Both the position numbers and the translations under genes were made by a program. A stretch of 53,179 bases of DNA, taken from contig JALVQA010000003.1 in NCBI GenBank assembly GCA_027031495.1, positions 1-53,179 of the forward strand, read 5' to 3'. This document shows, piece by piece, positions 2,996-52,613 of this stretch. The number at the start of each line of letters is the position of its first letter. Position 1 is the first letter of the stretch. The DNA is from Candidatus Moraniibacteriota bacterium. GTDB lineage: Bacteria; Patescibacteriota; Minisyncoccia; Moranbacterales; GCA-2747515. The notes beneath the pieces were generated by a model, which had not been told where the DNA came from, did no database searches, and was given only the letters and a program-made list of their open reading frames with translations.

Positions 2996-3418
2996 ATGAA
3001 AAGATATTTTTTGTTTATGTCGCTGGCGATAGCGATGATAGCGGTATCTTTGAGTGGTTGCGCAAATGATAGTGAGGATGTAATGGCAACACCATCTGCA
3101 CCGCATACGCAGAGCACGGCGGCTGATGTTAATGTATCAAATGATGCGAAACAGGACGCAAAACCGCCAGAGGGTGTAAAGTTCTATACGATGGATGAGG
3201 TGGCAAAACATAATACACCGCAGGACTGCTGGACTGTAGTTGATGGTGGCGTGGCGGATGTTACAAGTTTCTTTAGCGAGCATCCTGGTGGTGATGACAA
3301 ACTTGCACAGGCATGCGGCAAAGATGCGACACAGCTCTTTATGGCGCAAGTAAAGCATGATCCAAAAGGTATGGCAAAATTCAAGACAATGATTATTGGT
3401 TCTCTAAAAGTACAGTAA
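2996..3418 (+). CDS. Lipoprotein with cytochrome b5-like heme-binding domain
   Basis: This 140-residue protein has a signal peptide ending in the lipobox LSGC, so C22 should be lipidated and the protein anchored outside the membrane. A Ser/Thr/Asp-rich linker (23-60) leads to a cytochrome b5 fold starting at YTMDEVAKHNTPQDCW. HPGG holds the first axial heme ligand (H96), and H121 in AQVKHDPKG is the best candidate for the second. Such a protein could carry electrons or bind heme or another ligand at the cell surface. No redox partner is encoded nearby. It appears monocistronic, with its own promoter and terminator. Confidence 0.82.
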   Translation: MKRYFLFMSLAIAMIAVSLSGCANDSEDVMATPSAPHTQSTAADVNVSNDAKQDAKPPEGVKFYTMDEVAKHNTPQDCWTVVDGGVADVTSFFSEHPGGDDKLAQACGKDATQLFMAQVKHDPKGMAKFKTMIIGSLKVQ

Positions 3419-9340: not shown

Positions 9341-9495
9341 TCATTGCCTGCCCACCGGCAGGCAGGTGAGGAATGGAGCGTAGCGACAAGAAAAACTCGT
9401 CATTGCGAGGAATGGAGCGTAGCGAAATGACGAAGCAATCTCTGACACTATGTGTCATCCCCGCCTACCTACGGTAGGCAGGTGAAGATGGGGAT
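9341..9495. repeat. REP-like palindromic repeat cluster
   Basis: This block is a run of palindromes. GCCTGCC/GGCAGGC (9346-9352, 9357-9363), CGTCATT/AATGACG (9398-9404, 9426-9432), TGACAC/GTGTCA (9443-9457) and GCCTACC/GGTAGGC (9463-9469, 9473-9479) nested within ATCCCC/GGGGAT (9457-9462, 9490-9495). The 19-bp word gaggaatggagcgtagcga occurs twice (9368-9386 and 9407-9425). The wording (cattgcgagg, aagcaatctc, ggggatccag) resembles dispersed intergenic repeats common in several bacterial genomes, including candidate-phyla bacteria. Such elements are usually non-autonomous. Confidence 0.75.
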
Positions 9496-9667
9496 CCAGA
9501 AAGTACAACAGCCTTCCAATCAGCGTCTTGTGCAGAACACACACAGTGTTCCGCCCAACACGCTGCTCGGAAGAGTGGCAAAATTCAGGCGTCCGAAGTC
9601 CGCCCAAGGCGGATGGAGGACAAAATTCAATTTTGCGGTGAGGACAAAAGTCCAACAATCCGCGGGA
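9496..9667. other. Leader region with small inverted repeats before the exonuclease-like gene
   Basis: No gene is seen. Small hairpins are present: GAACAC/GTGTTC near 9538, TCCGCC-caa-GGCGGA near 9599-9613, CAAAATT-c-AATTTTG near 9622-9636 and GGAC-aaaa-GTCC near 9642-9653. They make the start of the hairpin chain that continues through the next two genes. Confidence 0.45.
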
Positions 9668-9674
9668 GATTGCA

Positions 9675-10286
9675 GTGAGCAATCAAAAAAACAAGGCGGC
9701 GACTGCCTCTAAAGTCGCAAAAAAAATCTTTTCCTTTGATTTGGAGGTCGACGGCCTGTATGGCCCGGCCTTCGCTATTGCCGCCACTGTGCGGCAAAAC
9801 GGGCAAGAGATTGCCCGGTTTGAGGGAAGAATTCCCGACTCGGCCGTTTCCGACGGCTGGGTTCGGGAAAATGTTCTTCCGGCGTTGGGTGACATGGAAG
9901 TCACTCACCAGACGTCGGAGGAGTTAGAGGAGGCGCTCTGGGCATTCTACGCCCAAGAGTGCCTCGTTGAAGGGGAGGGTGGTCCCTCCTTTGATGGCGA
10001 TAACATCATTGTTATCGTCCACTGCGGTAGCCCCGTCGAGTCCGGTTTTTTTCGTCGCTGCGTAGAGCGCGACGAAAGCCGAACTTTTCAGGCCCCCCTG
10101 CCTCTCCATGAGGTTGGGACACTCCTGGAAGCTCTTGACGAGGAGTCGACTTCGGTCGACTCCTACATCAAAAAACACGGCATTGCCGTGCAATTCGACG
10201 GGGTGACCCATCACCCTATGTATGATAGCGTCGTGGCGGCCCAGGTGTGGGAACACGCCATGGCTCGTATTCGCGGCGAGTTGTAA
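9675..10286 (+). CDS. DEDDh 3'-5' exonuclease-like protein in hairpin-dense sequence
   Basis: The 203-residue product has SFDLEVDG near the N-terminus (D22, E24: motif I of DnaQ-like exonucleases), VHCGSPVESGFF in the middle (motif II, with Glu where Asp is usual) and HHPMYDSVVAAQ near the end (H179, D184: motif III of DEDDh type). It probably trims RNA or DNA 3' ends; the substrate is unknown. The start is GTG at 9675 with GGGAG upstream. The start codon lies in the 5-base loop of a hairpin (GATTGC 9668-9673 with GCAATC 9679-9684). Codons are GC-richer than in neighbours, suggesting transfer. At least ten further hairpins of 6-15 bp lie inside the coding frame; see the finding on the chain. 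Confidence 0.7.
   Translation: MSNQKNKAATASKVAKKIFSFDLEVDGLYGPAFAIAATVRQNGQEIARFEGRIPDSAVSDGWVRENVLPALGDMEVTHQTSEELEEALWAFYAQECLVEGEGGPSFDGDNIIVIVHCGSPVESGFFRRCVERDESRTFQAPLPLHEVGTLLEALDEESTSVDSYIKKHGIAVQFDGVTHHPMYDSVVAAQVWEHAMARIRGEL
9832..9869 (+). other. Long coding-region hairpin
   Basis: TTCCCGA (9832-9838) pairs with TCGGGAA (9863-9869), and 9839-9846 pairs with 9854-9861, giving about 15 bp with one bulge and a 7-base loop. It lies wholly inside the exonuclease-like gene. Confidence 0.7.
10141..10164 (+). other. Perfect 10-bp hairpin with TTCG loop inside a gene
   Basis: AGGAGTCGAC (10141-10150) and GTCGACTCCT (10155-10164) pair perfectly around the loop TTCG. In RNA this is a UUCG tetraloop, one of the most stable known. 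It lies in the exonuclease-like coding frame. Confidence 0.85.
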
Positions 10287-10701
10287 CATCGTTACCGAAG
10301 TTGGAAGATCTTCGGGATAGAAAATAAAACTTCCATGATTTCTCACCATGCACGGGAAGTGTATGGTGAGCGCAACGGGAGAAGCGTTATTCTCCCTTTC
10401 TAATGAGTGTGCAATCGCAGCTGCGATTGTGGACTCATGAGAAAATGACAGTCCTTTGAAAAAAAACATCTACCCCTATGCGTGGCGCTGTGGGTGTATG
10501 TATCCAGCATACACACGTACCCAGAGCGCCACTCGTAAGCGGGTGGTAAAAATCTAAACAGTCTCACTCTACCTTACATTTCTGATCTGCAGGAAGTGTT
10601 TTCAAAGGGCAGGTGTGAGATAATTTTTTTAGGGCGCTAAGCCCCTCCGCCACGTTTTCATGGGCGTGGAGCAGACGGAGCGACACCCAAGGAGGTGTGA
10701 C
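10287..10701 (+). ncRNA. Structured spacer RNA candidate between the two hairpin-rich genes
   Basis: This 415-bp spacer has no convincing gene on the plus strand but holds consecutive inverted repeats. CCGAAG/CTTCGG (10295-10315); a 12-bp stem 10342-10353 with 10359-10370 and loop gggaa; GGGAGAA/TTCTCCC (10377-10396); a long stem 10403-10438 built on the palindrome CAATCGCAGCTGCGATTG; and a 51-base hairpin 10482-10532 whose outer arms are GTGGCGCT and AGCGCCAC. CCACTCG (10529-10535) can instead pair with CGGGTGG (10540-10546), so two folds compete. Near the 3' end ACACC/GGTGT (10683-10698) holds the AAGGAGG ribosome-binding site. It matches no RNA family I recognise. Confidence 0.5.
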
Positions 10702-11064
10702 ATGGAAAATTTTGAAAAGATTATTGGAGAGGGGAGAGTGGTATACTCTTCCCAAGATCGTGAAAAGATAGGAGCGGTAGATTCATTCTACCTCTCCTCA
10801 CCGAACCTCCAAAAAAGGGAGGTGCGATGTTGGAGAGGACAACCATTTCTGGTAATTTATACCAGAAATGCCATAATAGAAAAAACCGGCGCCGCACATT
10901 GCGGCGTTGGCCTCAGAGGTCAAGAGTGTATATACCAAAGAATAATAAAAGGGTACGAACCCGAGTGGAAACTAAAAAAGGTGGTGGCATTTAAAGATGC
11001 TGCCGCCAAAGGGGAGGTTATAAGTGATGCCGAGAGGTATCACGCAGAAAAATATTGTCGGTAG
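10702..11064 (+). CDS. Hypothetical protein of 120 residues in hairpin-dense sequence
   Basis: The ATG at 10702 follows AAGGAGG (10689-10695), a near-perfect SD partly enclosed by a 5-bp hairpin. The protein starts MENFEKIIGEGRVVYSSQDR and is soluble, rich in charged residues, with strands around REVRCWRGQPFLVIYTRNA and a C-terminal AEKYCR. No family is recognised. The coding sequence has at least seven local hairpins, including 10731-10753 (9 bp), 10770-10798 (11 of 12 bp), 10844-10870 (10 bp), 10886-10910 (11 bp, 3-base loop) and 11024-11043 (8 bp, GAGA loop). It ends just before a strong terminator. Confidence 0.65.
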   Translation: MENFEKIIGEGRVVYSSQDREKIGAVDSFYLSSPNLQKREVRCWRGQPFLVIYTRNAIIEKTGAAHCGVGLRGQECIYQRIIKGYEPEWKLKKVVAFKDAAAKGEVISDAERYHAEKYCR

Positions 11065-11075
11065 AAAAATACCTC

Positions 11076-11151
11076 GCCGAGCTGGAACGCATTCCGGCTC
11101 GGCACATCTTTTGAGCAGTGCAGCGCGATGCGCTGGAGTGTTCAAAAGATG
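11076..11151 (+). terminator. Two stacked hairpins ending the hairpin-rich unit
   Basis: The first hairpin has a 12-bp stem, GCCGAGCTGGAA (11076-11087) with TTCCGGCTCGGC (11092-11103), loop CGCA, followed by ACATCTTTT. The second starts immediately: CATCTTTTGA (11105-11114) pairs with TCAAAAGATG (11142-11151) and encloses CAGCGC-gat-GCGCTG (11121-11135). The first may act as a terminator, and the second overlaps its T-tract. Confidence 0.6.
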
Positions 11152-11299: not shown

Positions 11300-11385
11300 G
11301 CCGCGGTGGTGGAATTGGTAGACACGGGGGACTTAAAATCCCCTGACGCAAAAACGTCGTGCGGGTTCAAGTCCCGCTCGCGGCA
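11300..11385 (+). tRNA. tRNA-Leu (anticodon UAA)
   Basis: The acceptor arm is GCCGCGG paired with TCGCGGC, the D-arm has GGAATTGGTAGACAC, the anticodon stem GGGGA/TCCCC encloses CTTAAAA with anticodon TAA at 11334-11336, and the long variable arm GACGCAAAAACGTC marks a class II tRNA. The T-arm is GCGGGTTCAAGTCCCGC. The discriminator is A at 11385, as expected for leucine. CCA is not encoded, so it must be added by a CCA enzyme. It stands alone downstream of the hairpin-rich unit. Confidence 0.95.
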
Positions 11386-11408
11386 CACATGAGCGCAGCG
11401 AATGCTGT
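11380..11408. repeat. 29-bp direct repeat at the tRNA 3' end, copy 1
   Basis: The 29 bases from gcggcacacatgagcg to aatgctgt include the last six bases of the tRNA and are repeated exactly at 11499-11527. Repeats that begin in a tRNA 3' end are typical of integration sites, though this one overlaps the tRNA only slightly. Confidence 0.75.
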
Positions 11409-11498
11409 GCAAGGGAGCACGCCAACTGCTTGGCGTGCATCGGGACTTGAAGGGCGAAGCGTCCCCGCAAGCCCCGGCCCGGAGGGAAGTCCTGAGCA
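11409..11498. other. Short insert between the tRNA-end repeats
   Basis: The 90 bp between the repeats hold a strong hairpin (GCACGCCA 11417-11424 with TGGCGTGC 11431-11438) and an inverted 11-base copy of the tRNA T-arm: CGGGACTTGAA (11441-11451) is the reverse complement of 11366-11376. There is no gene. Confidence 0.6.
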
Positions 11499-11527
11499 GC
11501 GGCACACATGAGCGCAGCGAATGCTGT
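11499..11527. repeat. 29-bp direct repeat at the tRNA 3' end, copy 2
   Basis: This is an exact second copy of 11380-11408, lying 90 bp beyond the first. Confidence 0.75.
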
Positions 11528-11549
11528 AGTGGGGGAGGGCGATTTAAAA

Positions 11550-50965: not shown

Positions 50966-51660
50966 TTACTTTACATGCCACTCAATTGTTGTCATATCTT
51001 GTATGGCACCGTCAAAAAAACGTTGCGCTGTGTATTTTTCCAGGTCAATAAGAAAACCGGTTGTGCGCATGTTTGCCGTACAGCAACCGTCGCAATCACT
51101 ATCGGCGCACATGTCAATAATGCGAACATCTAGTGTTTTGCCGGTATGCGGACTGCGAATGACGATGATCTTATTGCGATACTTTTCAAAGAATTTCTCG
51201 TGCACGGCGGCAATGTTGTGTGTTTTGACCCAACTAAGAGGTTTGACACCATCGATTGCTGCAAACTGTCCAGCCCATGTGCATCCATTATATTTTGCAC
51301 ATTCTTCACTGTGTGGGTCCGGGTATGATTCAAACCATGTTGCGGTAGCTTTTGCCAGTGAATATCCGATTCTTTAAAGGTAGGTGCAGAAGTAGGTAAT
51401 TGTGATGTGTTGCATGTTTGCTGACTTTTTTGTTGCAGTTGTGGCAATTTTTGCGGTTCTTGTGGTGATGTAATTTCTCTCTTTTCCGTAAAACTTTCTT
51501 TCATCTTGTGCGGTAATGTAGTCGGACCATCTGTTGTGACCGGCGTTGTATGCAATTGCATGAGTGGAAGGTCTTTTCTATTGTGTGCAAAAACGTACCA
51601 GCTAACGATGCTGGTAGAAATAATTATGAATGTAATGATACTATAAAAAACGAGTCACAT
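50966..51660 (-). pseudogene. Broken secreted RlpA/expansin-like gene
   Basis: Two minus-strand frames must be joined to make one protein. The first encodes a membrane anchor (VFYSIITFIIISTSIVSW) and a Pro/Gln-rich linker (PQEPQKLPQLQQKSQQ). Near 51370-51378 the reading switches frame to a C-terminal domain (KATATWFESYPDPHSEECAK, KIIVIRSPHTGKTLDVRIID, MCADSDCDGCC) that resembles an RlpA/expansin double-psi barrel. The likely start ATG (51660-51658) is followed directly by TGA (51657-51655). These two lesions suggest a pseudogene or assembly errors. Its stop abuts that of the Nudix-GrpE gene. Confidence 0.65.
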
Positions 51661-51691
51661 AAATGATTTTTTGATGATATTACTCAACTAA

Positions 51692-51700
51692 AGTATAGCA
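51692..51700 (-). promoter_or_regulatory. Extended -10 promoter of the broken secreted gene
   Basis: On the minus strand TGC is followed by TATACT (51697-51692), an extended -10 element about 32 bp before the ATG-TGA. No -35 box is evident. Confidence 0.45.
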
Positions 51701-51739
51701 TGACTGGCATGTTTATAGTGTGCAGAAAATCTATGAAAA

Positions 51740-51766
51740 TTAGCACTCTTGACAGGGGAGTCGTAG
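51740..51766. promoter_or_regulatory. Degenerate CIRCE-like site 1
   Basis: TTAGCACTC-N9-GAGTCGTAG keeps the left half exactly and differs from CIRCE at three positions in the right half. The spacer contains TTGACA. Confidence 0.6.
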
Positions 51767-51780
51767 TAAGTGCAAAAAAA

Positions 51781-51807
51781 CTAGCACTCTCTTGACGGGA
51801 GTGGTAA
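51781..51807. promoter_or_regulatory. Degenerate CIRCE-like site 2
   Basis: CTAGCACTC-N9-GAGTGGTAA differs from CIRCE by one base in each half, and the spacer contains TTGACG. It starts 41 bp after site 1. Confidence 0.6.
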
Positions 51808-51823
51808 TTCAAAAAAACGCTAA

Positions 51824-51851
51824 AACACTGGGAAAACCCAGTGTTTTTTGG
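51824..51851. terminator. Strong terminator between the CIRCE-like sites and the transglycosylase
   Basis: AACACTGGG (51824-51832) and CCCAGTGTT (51837-51845) form a perfect 9-bp stem with loop AAAA, followed by TTTTGG. It would stop plus-strand transcripts starting at the CIRCE-like sites. Confidence 0.85.
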
Positions 51852-51891
51852 TTGTAGGGTGAGCGCTAACGCGGACGCATATCCGCGGTAA

Positions 51892-52410
51892 ATGCTCGAA
51901 CATATGAGAAAGTTTCTCATAATATTCGCTGGCGGATGGCTTTTCATTCCAGTCATCGTGAGTGAACTACATTATCTTTTCGCTGAGAAAAGAGAAATCG
52001 TCAACACTTACTCTGATATAGCTCGTGCGGCAGAGGTGCCGGAAGCAGAATACACGGCACCGGACCCGTGCGGACTCATTGATGTGGTGTGTGATGATGA
52101 AAGACAACTTGACCGAGACGGTATAGAGCGTCTCATTCGGGAGACATTCCCGGAGGACCCGGACACGGCAGTGCGCATTGCACATTGTGAAAGTCGTCTG
52201 GATCCGACGCGTGTCGGTGACACGCACACGGCATACTCATCGTATGGAGTATTCCAAATCCGACTCCTTCCGGGTCGGGTAAAGTACGCAGGTCTGACAG
52301 CCGAGAAGCTGTTGGACGCGCGGGCAAACATCGCGTACGCGCGCAAAATCTATGATCGCTTTGGGTGGCGGCCGTGGACGTGCGCGAGAATTGTCGGCGT
52401 GGTGAAGTAA
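51892..52410 (+). CDS. Membrane-anchored lytic transglycosylase-like protein
   Basis: The 172-residue protein has an N-terminal membrane anchor (FLIIFAGGWLFIPVIVSEL) and a linker, then a lysozyme-like domain: VRIAHCESRLDPTRVGDTHT with the catalytic Glu, SSYGVFQIRLLPGR, and DARANIAYARKIYDRFGWRP. It should cleave peptidoglycan outside the membrane. Small SLT-type enzymes are frequent in conjugative elements and phages, where they open the wall. The following tiny genes and HTH gene fit that setting. Confidence 0.82.
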   Translation: MLEHMRKFLIIFAGGWLFIPVIVSELHYLFAEKREIVNTYSDIARAAEVPEAEYTAPDPCGLIDVVCDDERQLDRDGIERLIRETFPEDPDTAVRIAHCESRLDPTRVGDTHTAYSSYGVFQIRLLPGRVKYAGLTAEKLLDARANIAYARKIYDRFGWRPWTCARIVGVVK

Positions 52411-52413
52411 TTA

Positions 52414-52474
52414 GCTAACATCCAGTTCTCGGTGCCACCGTTTGTTGTTAGCGGCGGCGGTGCCGAGAACTGGA
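52414..52474 (+). other. Large inverted repeat with two competing hairpins
   Basis: TCCAGTTCTCGG (52421-52432) pairs with CCGAGAACTGGA (52463-52474), extended by CACCG/CGGTG, giving a 17-bp stem with a bulge. Alternatively GCTAACA (52414-52420) pairs with TGTTAGC (52446-52452); the second lies in the loop of the first. No T-tract follows. Confidence 0.65.
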
Positions 52475-52484
52475 CAGAACGACT

Positions 52485-52613
52485 ATGTGGGTGGCAATCA
52501 TTACAGCGGTGTGTGCATTTATCATCTGCTTTTTCGTTGCAGAGCACATCGCTGACGAGCGCGCAGAACGTGAAAGCGCAAAACTGTGGGGAAAGGAGGT
52601 GTGTGACCGATGA
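52485..52613 (+). CDS. Tiny single-helix membrane protein, 42 residues
   Basis: The product starts MWVAIITAVCAFIICFFVAE and ends in a polar tail (HIADERAERESAKLWGKEVC). It is a single-span membrane peptide. The stop overlaps the next start (ATGA), which supports real translation. No family is recognised. Small hydrophobic proteins near lysozyme-like genes can be holin-like, but this is speculative. Confidence 0.6.
   Translation: MWVAIITAVCAFIICFFVAEHIADERAERESAKLWGKEVCDR

Follow-up and report, generated by a model that had tools for sequence, protein, structure and literature searches.

The locus lies within a 53,179-nucleotide stretch of DNA (hereafter, the window) from a Patescibacteria genome of 1.0 Mb that is 98% complete. 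The phylum was assigned through L092, a genome placed in the same phylum by the genome search, which is identical to a named Uhrbacteria MAG (L029). It comprises two short genes, each preceded by a structured leader, together with the spacer that separates them and a hairpin-rich 3' end (Table 1). The start of gene 2 was placed by its leader and not by an upstream ATG at 10660. The 3' hairpins contain an inverted repeat, cttttgagcagtgcag...tgttcaaaag, which is also found after an island gene on contig C14 of the same genome (L002 sequence), and this region is probably the transcript end. Immediately upstream of the locus, direct repeats of type gtcattgcgaggaatggagcgtagcgaaatgacgaagcaatctc occupy positions 9350-9500. 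Downstream, a segment formed by the 3' end of tRNA-Leu(taa) and cacatgagcgcagcgaatgctgt (11385-11412) recurs about 120 bases further on, at 11503-11532, with tRNA-like debris in between; this duplication of the tRNA 3' end is possibly an old integration scar.

Table 1. Features of the hyper-folded locus, numbered from the first base of the window
Feature	Position	Strand	Description or basis
Leader of gene 1 ("type B")	9525..9674	+	Hairpin chain; purine-rich ribosome-binding stretch at its end, followed by a GTG start
Gene 1, DEDD-type 3'-5' exonuclease-like, 203 aa, hyper-folded	9675..10286	+	Codon-shuffle, family alignment, AlphaFold, Foldseek
Spacer hairpin, 12 bp, loop GGGAA	10342..10370	+	Local minimum-energy fold
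Further spacer hairpins	10377-10396, 10410-10431	+	Local minimum-energy fold
boxA-like element TCCTTTGAAAA, candidate antitermination signal	10452..10462	+	Pattern enrichment
Repeated leader block, 88% identical to the copy on contig C14	10482..10704	+	DNA search of the same genome
"Type A" leader RNA motif	10631..10704	+	Copies and covariation
Hairpin with the Shine-Dalgarno sequence in its loop, ACACC-CAAGGA-GGUGU	10683..10698	+	Local and consensus fold
Gene 2, orphan protein, 120 aa, hyper-folded	10702..11064	+	Codon-shuffle z -6.1
3' hairpins, including 11076-11103 (12 bp)	11076..11150	+	Local fold

Results

Products of the two genes

An AlphaFold model of the gene 1 product (pLDDT 90.8) gave 65 Foldseek matches in the PDB at E<=0.001; the best 50 of these 65 are for the most part DEDD-type exonucleases or proteins that contain a domain of this type, and the matches include the DinG, DnaQ, PolC, RNase T and ExoX exonucleases. 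In the family alignment, D22 and E24 of motif I (DxE) are invariant, and H179 and D184 of motif III (HxxxxD) are nearly so. The product is predicted with high confidence to adopt the RNase T/DnaQ exonuclease fold. It shares this fold and the two catalytic motifs with RNase T and DnaQ-type DEDD exonucleases, but differs from them in that an invariant glutamate, Glu122, stands at the position expected for the motif II aspartate, and in that it matches no Pfam family above threshold. The gene 2 product matches no Pfam, NCBIfam or PADLOC family, its PHROG match is at chance level, and no homologue was found among 95 relatives or in viral contigs. A viral origin was also sought through gene 2 and through a DHH-domain protein encoded in another island, and was set aside when no viral contig was found.

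Folding of the locus

An earlier note, made from the sequence alone, had proposed that the two genes and their spacer (9668-11151) form one chain of RNA hairpins. Folding was scored in 120-nt windows against dinucleotide shuffles, slid across all 53,179 nt. The segment has a mean z of -4.16, which no stretch of equal length elsewhere in the window approaches, the window as a whole having a mean of -0.36 (sd 1.43). By the identical measure, the RNA phage MS2 averages -2.58 and phiX174 -0.40; 100 kb of E. coli averages about -0.35 and contains no 1-kb window below -1.8. A count independent of any energy model, limited to hairpins whose stems are perfectly Watson-Crick paired over 6 bp or more and whose loops span 3-9 nt, yields 18 hairpins in the segment, compared with 2.1 in its dinucleotide shuffles (maximum 6, n=200) and 2.6 in 33 other pieces of equal length from the window (maximum 7). 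Its local minimum-energy fold contains 39 hairpins, pairs 62% of the bases and leaves loops that are mostly 3-5 nt long. The RNA of 9668-11151 is predicted to fold into an unbroken chain of hairpins, more tightly than the MS2 genome, and on this central point the earlier note was right.

Most of the individual hairpins listed by hand were recovered: 9800-9817 (loop GAGA), 9971-9992, 9998-10017, 10141-10164 (10 bp, TTCG), 10200-10217, 10342-10370 (12 bp), 10731-10753 (10 bp), 10844-10870 (11 bp), 10886-10910 (11 bp) and 11024-11043 (GAGA). Three others, at 9931-9964, 10050-10077 and 10482-10532, appear as shorter cores. The folded region does end near 11150, as proposed, but begins earlier than 9668, with the leader of gene 1 (about 9525).

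Codon-preserving shuffles, the check that the earlier note had called for, strongly favour its claim. Gene 1 scores z -8.9 and gene 2 z -6.1, compared with +0.6 to -2.3 for ten control genes, two of them of high GC; 26 other island genes score from -1.9 to -11.6. The note had likened the pattern to selection on RNA folding across codons in single-stranded RNA phages, and the deficit does equal that of MS2 genes, which by the same measure score -5.8 to -8.1. An effect of genome background or GC content is ruled out by the dinucleotide and codon controls and by the high-GC control genes of the same stretch. An assembly artefact is likewise ruled out: independent metagenome-assembled genomes of other lineages show such folding too, and the flanks have z near 0. 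A second, smaller hyper-folded stretch (smoothed z < -1.8) occurs in the window at 51541-52500, around an open reading frame at 51892-52410.

Hyper-folded islands in the same genome

The genes neighbouring the locus lack similar folding, as had been claimed; several like islands nevertheless occur elsewhere in this genome. Of the spacer block at 10482-10704, the copy on contig C14 precedes a different gene, and shorter copies are found on contigs C21 and C13. Around these copies the DNA is hyper-folded over approximately 7 kb (C21), 4 kb (C13) and 2 kb (C14), with flanks near zero. Five more islands were found in 14 stretches of the genome taken arbitrarily (about 220 kb in all), bringing those seen to approximately ten; besides the loci that were targeted, the scan covered about 220 kb of this genome and, from relatives, single contigs. 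Survey z-scores were obtained by a fast regression, for which full shuffles at the same loci served as a check.

The islands sit in DNA contigs, within chromosomes, beside rpoC, glmS, folD and tRNA genes, and three of them lie near tRNA genes. Their products include the DHH-domain protein, a small zinc ribbon, a look-alike of TAXI-type solute receptors, a lipoprotein-like protein and many orphans; most of the genes have no Pfam, NCBIfam, PHROG or PADLOC match. Two island proteins have no homologue among 141 relatives, and the islands are therefore regarded as accessory DNA. The hyper-folded gene for the TAXI-type receptor-like protein, on the minus strand of L063 (14041-15042), has no homologue in these 141 relatives. 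Mildly folded genes also occur inside islands, namely a transposase on C21 and a 646-aa gene on C14.

Gene 1 homologues in other genomes

The gene 1 family is rare, being present in 6 of 380 genomes of the phylum (this one counted), and a scan of GTDB genomes for it yielded ten loci. Gene 1 lies in sharply bounded hyper-folded islands in the MAG contigs L024 and L025 and in contigs of Taylorbacteria, Nomurabacteria, Kaiserbacteria and Moranbacteria, where its neighbours are usually unrelated and hyper-folded too. What had been described as a single segment is thus a broader phenomenon, a class of islands across Patescibacteria. Folding is weaker at the Uhrbacteria loci and at L030, and the Taylorbacteria copy of gene 1 is itself mild (codon-shuffle z -1.9) beside a neighbour at -6.9. 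No codon-shuffle excess was found in the distant copy L095, and no hyper-folding in the Frankia homologue. Most homologues in phage contigs are unfolded and a few are single-gene folded patches; at L034 (5998-6846) and L050 (2569-2964), for example, the exonuclease is the lone folded gene of an otherwise unfolded phage genome, in the manner of a moron.

At L024 (6526-7443) and L030 (6699-7892), gene 1 homologues are followed by a second common family, "...KYGIILPKGGMI(I/V)P...", which is a possible functional partner of the exonuclease. Separately, small hyper-folded genes form an array of 7 kb on one strand of a Moranbacteria contig (L033); within it a block, TTCTTTGAAAAG..CTCCTCCC..CGAGATTC..CATGGCCTTGGGT, is repeated at 3260, 3783 and 6765; this block is probably another leader family.

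Leader RNAs and translation

The recurrent island spacers represent several unrelated leader types that end at start codons; an integron cassette array would show a single family of attC-type sites, one behind each gene, along with an integrase. The type A leader consists of a GGGC/GCCC hairpin, a stem in two parts whose UUCAUGG loop is invariant, a hairpin bearing the Shine-Dalgarno sequence, and the start codon. Four copies lie upstream of start codons in this genome and two in other families of the order. A first covariance model detected a weak copy from a different family of the order; this copy keeps the loop, and several of its pairs have changed on both sides. Among five copies, both partners have changed in 9 of 20 pairs, a number reached in 0 of 500 shuffles, in an alignment that was fitted to the structure and whose slid controls give 1-2 pairs. 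The improved model found a copy in a third genome with an E-value of 2e-7, values from such home-made models being rough, and nothing credible in 287 genomes of the phylum. The leader match G213 (E 0.035) was unfolded and was discarded.

The two new type A copies stand directly before a Shine-Dalgarno sequence and ATG, and the genes downstream have codon-shuffle z-scores of -8.9 and -11.0. Because the leader was not chosen for downstream folding, the finding that both matches are followed by hyper-folded genes constitutes a prospective confirmation. The same leaders recur before genes that are unrelated to one another, and in other genomes the leader is predictive of a hyper-folded gene.

Two more copies of the type B leader stand before unrelated genes of the C21 island (L019 12850-13003 and 15240-15397), with 71% mean column identity in alignment A7. 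A third leader type, "ccctgcgccaccacgcaggggattcaa...ttcaccac...gtggtgagaggag", is seen at L019 16020-16083, with related copies at C21:16347 and C21:18803, and precedes several genes of the C21 island. Searches of Rfam families returned chance-level matches only, apart from tRNA. A short leader pattern tried on viral contigs gave six chance matches with z near 0.

Start codons show less pairing than the bodies of the genes (0.55 vs 0.32-0.39), and Shine-Dalgarno regions show more than those of controls; the genes are therefore probably translated under the control of hairpins. Third codon positions diverge most in island genes, and translation of these genes is plausible from their sequences. 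The folding might serve solely to keep the accessory proteins at a low and tunable level of expression, without contributing to RNA stability. The highly paired Shine-Dalgarno regions would fit such translational dampening, as would the type A leader, which places the Shine-Dalgarno sequence in a hairpin; we regard it nonetheless as unlikely, since silencing needs the start region alone, yet whole genes and spacers are folded, and start codons are less paired than the gene body.

The boxA-like element

The sequence at 10452..10462 resembles the boxA core of rrn operons and lambdoid phages, an element expected to bind NusB-S10 and to permit read-through. The pattern [TC][TC]CTTTGAAAA is enriched approximately 11-fold in hyper-folded islands (p 2e-6), for a motif picked post hoc, after the islands had been seen. 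As with boxA of rrn operons and lambdoid phages, the candidate element here lies upstream of hairpin-rich genes, where read-through would be needed. Unlike boxA of rrn operons, the putative element is not found at every island: many islands of this genome carry no boxA-like element, and neither does its rRNA leader. A role for boxA as a universal partner of the islands is unsupported in this genome.

What selection maintains

Homologues at 79% nucleotide identity have approximately 60% of base pairs in common. In close homologues, compensatory changes exceed chance (7 vs 2.5+-1.4 and 6 vs 1.6+-1.1) and broken pairs are fewer than expected (12 vs 19+-1.6). Third positions predicted to be paired change approximately 40% less than unpaired ones in close homologues (0.32 vs 0.52 and 0.31 vs 0.53 at 79% identity), and other comparisons go in the same direction (0.51 vs 0.70 and 0.29 vs 0.45). 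In the closest pair, one-sided pair changes lead to G-U in 32 cases and to A-C in 13. Finally, 24 of 28 island genes fold better in the sense than in the antisense orientation, each compared with its own shuffles (binomial p ~1e-4), with MS2 biased in the same direction; for gene 1 the two scores are close, and for gene 2 they are slightly reversed. The conservation of paired synonymous sites, the compensatory changes and the preference for the sense strand bear out the proposal that selection acts on RNA folding.

Distant gene 1 homologues have only 0-6 of approximately 180 pairs in common, little above shifted controls, and the conservation of specific stems among them was rejected as an explanation; each homologue is strongly folded despite this. 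The expectation that stems are kept by compensatory change thus holds for close homologues, but in distant ones the amount of folding is kept while the stems differ. Individual stems turn over between species. The selected property is therefore general foldedness of the sense RNA together with a few specific leader elements, a conclusion that is well supported.

Rapid turnover of stems between species is also what might be expected if the hairpins were a functionless by-product of mutation, for example of template switching at quasi-palindromes, which makes or repairs hairpins in new, weakly constrained DNA. Such an origin would account for the many stems that are perfect Watson-Crick repeats, for the prevalence of private orphans among island genes and for antisense folding that is strong too. 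We consider it rather improbable: housekeeping genes beside the islands show no such effect at synonymous sites, single-step changes to G-U outnumber those to A-C, the class is marked by a covarying leader, and a mutational process could mimic parts of the pattern, yet neither the strand bias nor the slow change of paired third positions.

The earlier note had left open whether RNA or single-stranded DNA was the selected molecule, and the sense bias makes the latter less likely. Cassettes moving as single strands, by natural transformation or by attC-like folded-strand recombination, might be protected or guided by hairpins, and the cassette-like layout, with leaders reused before unrelated genes, and the three islands near tRNA genes would suit such movement. 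The sense bias and the tolerance of G-U indicate RNA, however, the single-stranded DNA phage phiX174 shows no such folding, and the folding fills entire genes and not cassette ends; we accordingly give selection on single-stranded DNA little credence.

Discussion

Here, we describe a locus that belongs to a class of hyper-folded cassettes. The reading that we favor, tentatively and at somewhat less than even confidence, is that the sense RNA of these cassettes is selected to be double-stranded throughout, likely for stability against nucleases and for control of translation. Each cassette would consist of a leader RNA, with the ribosome-binding site in or beside hairpins, a short and mostly orphan gene, and a hairpin-rich 3' end, with codons chosen such that the sense transcript forms back-to-back local hairpins; the cassettes would be accessory genes that spread horizontally. 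The sites cut by RNase E and RNase Y are AU-rich and single-stranded, and mRNA devoid of ribosomes is vulnerable (PMC3997798). A transcript in which hardly any single-stranded run exceeds the length of a loop may resist ribonucleases of single-strand specificity, and such resistance would pay when few ribosomes cover the transcript, a condition that would fit rarely translated accessory genes. Abundant E. coli mRNAs are more structured on average (PMC4619774). The leader hairpins would control the start of translation and, in the least certain step, an upstream boxA-like element may recruit Nus-type antitermination, allowing RNA polymerase to read through. Against the stability reading stands the absence of the device from the housekeeping genes of this genome, whose mRNA must be stable as well.

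The closest parallels are found among RNA viruses. As in the islands, the coding sequences of Leviviricetes (single-stranded RNA phages such as MS2) are folded throughout, with codon-shuffle z-scores of -6 to -8 and the sense strand slightly above the antisense. The folding of the islands, in short local hairpins, matches or surpasses that of the phages; the islands differ in being chromosomal bacterial DNA that encodes no recognised phage proteins. The likeness raises the possibility that the islands were copied into DNA from an RNA replicon or a packaged RNA, or spread in that form, and that they retain such folding. A level of folding and a strand pattern that equal or exceed those of MS2, the mostly uniform direction of island genes, and spacers folded like the genes would all agree with an RNA stage. 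We see only a slim chance of it, given that replicase, coat protein and reverse transcriptase are unrecognised, that the sizes and gene contents of islands vary, and that lone hyper-folded genes occur too. In particular, scanned island proteins gave no Pfam or PHROG match to replicase, coat or maturation proteins, and the suggestion of an RNA-derived element made in the earlier note found no positive evidence, replicase, reverse transcriptase and phage-structural genes being unrecognised in the family searches run. Slimmer still is the chance that the cassettes are selected as free or packaged RNA, for example RNA exchanged between Patescibacteria cells or hosts and later fixed as DNA; this would account for genes and spacers alike being folded to the level of single-stranded RNA phages or beyond.

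Returning to selection on the cellular sense transcript, two further precedents deserve comparison. In some animal RNA viruses coding RNA is folded pervasively and non-specifically, as in the islands, a property termed genome-scale ordered RNA structure (GORS; PMC7642675, PMC3950689). GORS is known from RNA genomes, however, and the papers found report no gene set of this kind in a cellular DNA genome. For bacterial coding sequences, a local mRNA folding bias has been described as a genome-wide average that is weaker in endosymbionts and intracellular species (PMC7063772). That work uses the same kind of measure, native minus synonymous-shuffled energy; the bias of the islands differs from it in amounting to approximately 8-17 kcal/mol per 120 nt and in being confined to islands. 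No description of this class was found in the open-access literature. These observations suggest that hyper-folded genes, sometimes behind a common leader, represent a previously undescribed class of bacterial mRNA.

If this is correct, some bacterial chromosomes hold a class of genes with near-fully double-stranded messages, so far a property of RNA viruses. It would then become testable how far synonymous sites serve RNA structure, and whether the gain lies in stability, controlled translation or mobility. Additionally, the fold statistics and the leader model provide a means of finding, from sequence data alone, accessory genes in Patescibacteria, most of which have no known function.
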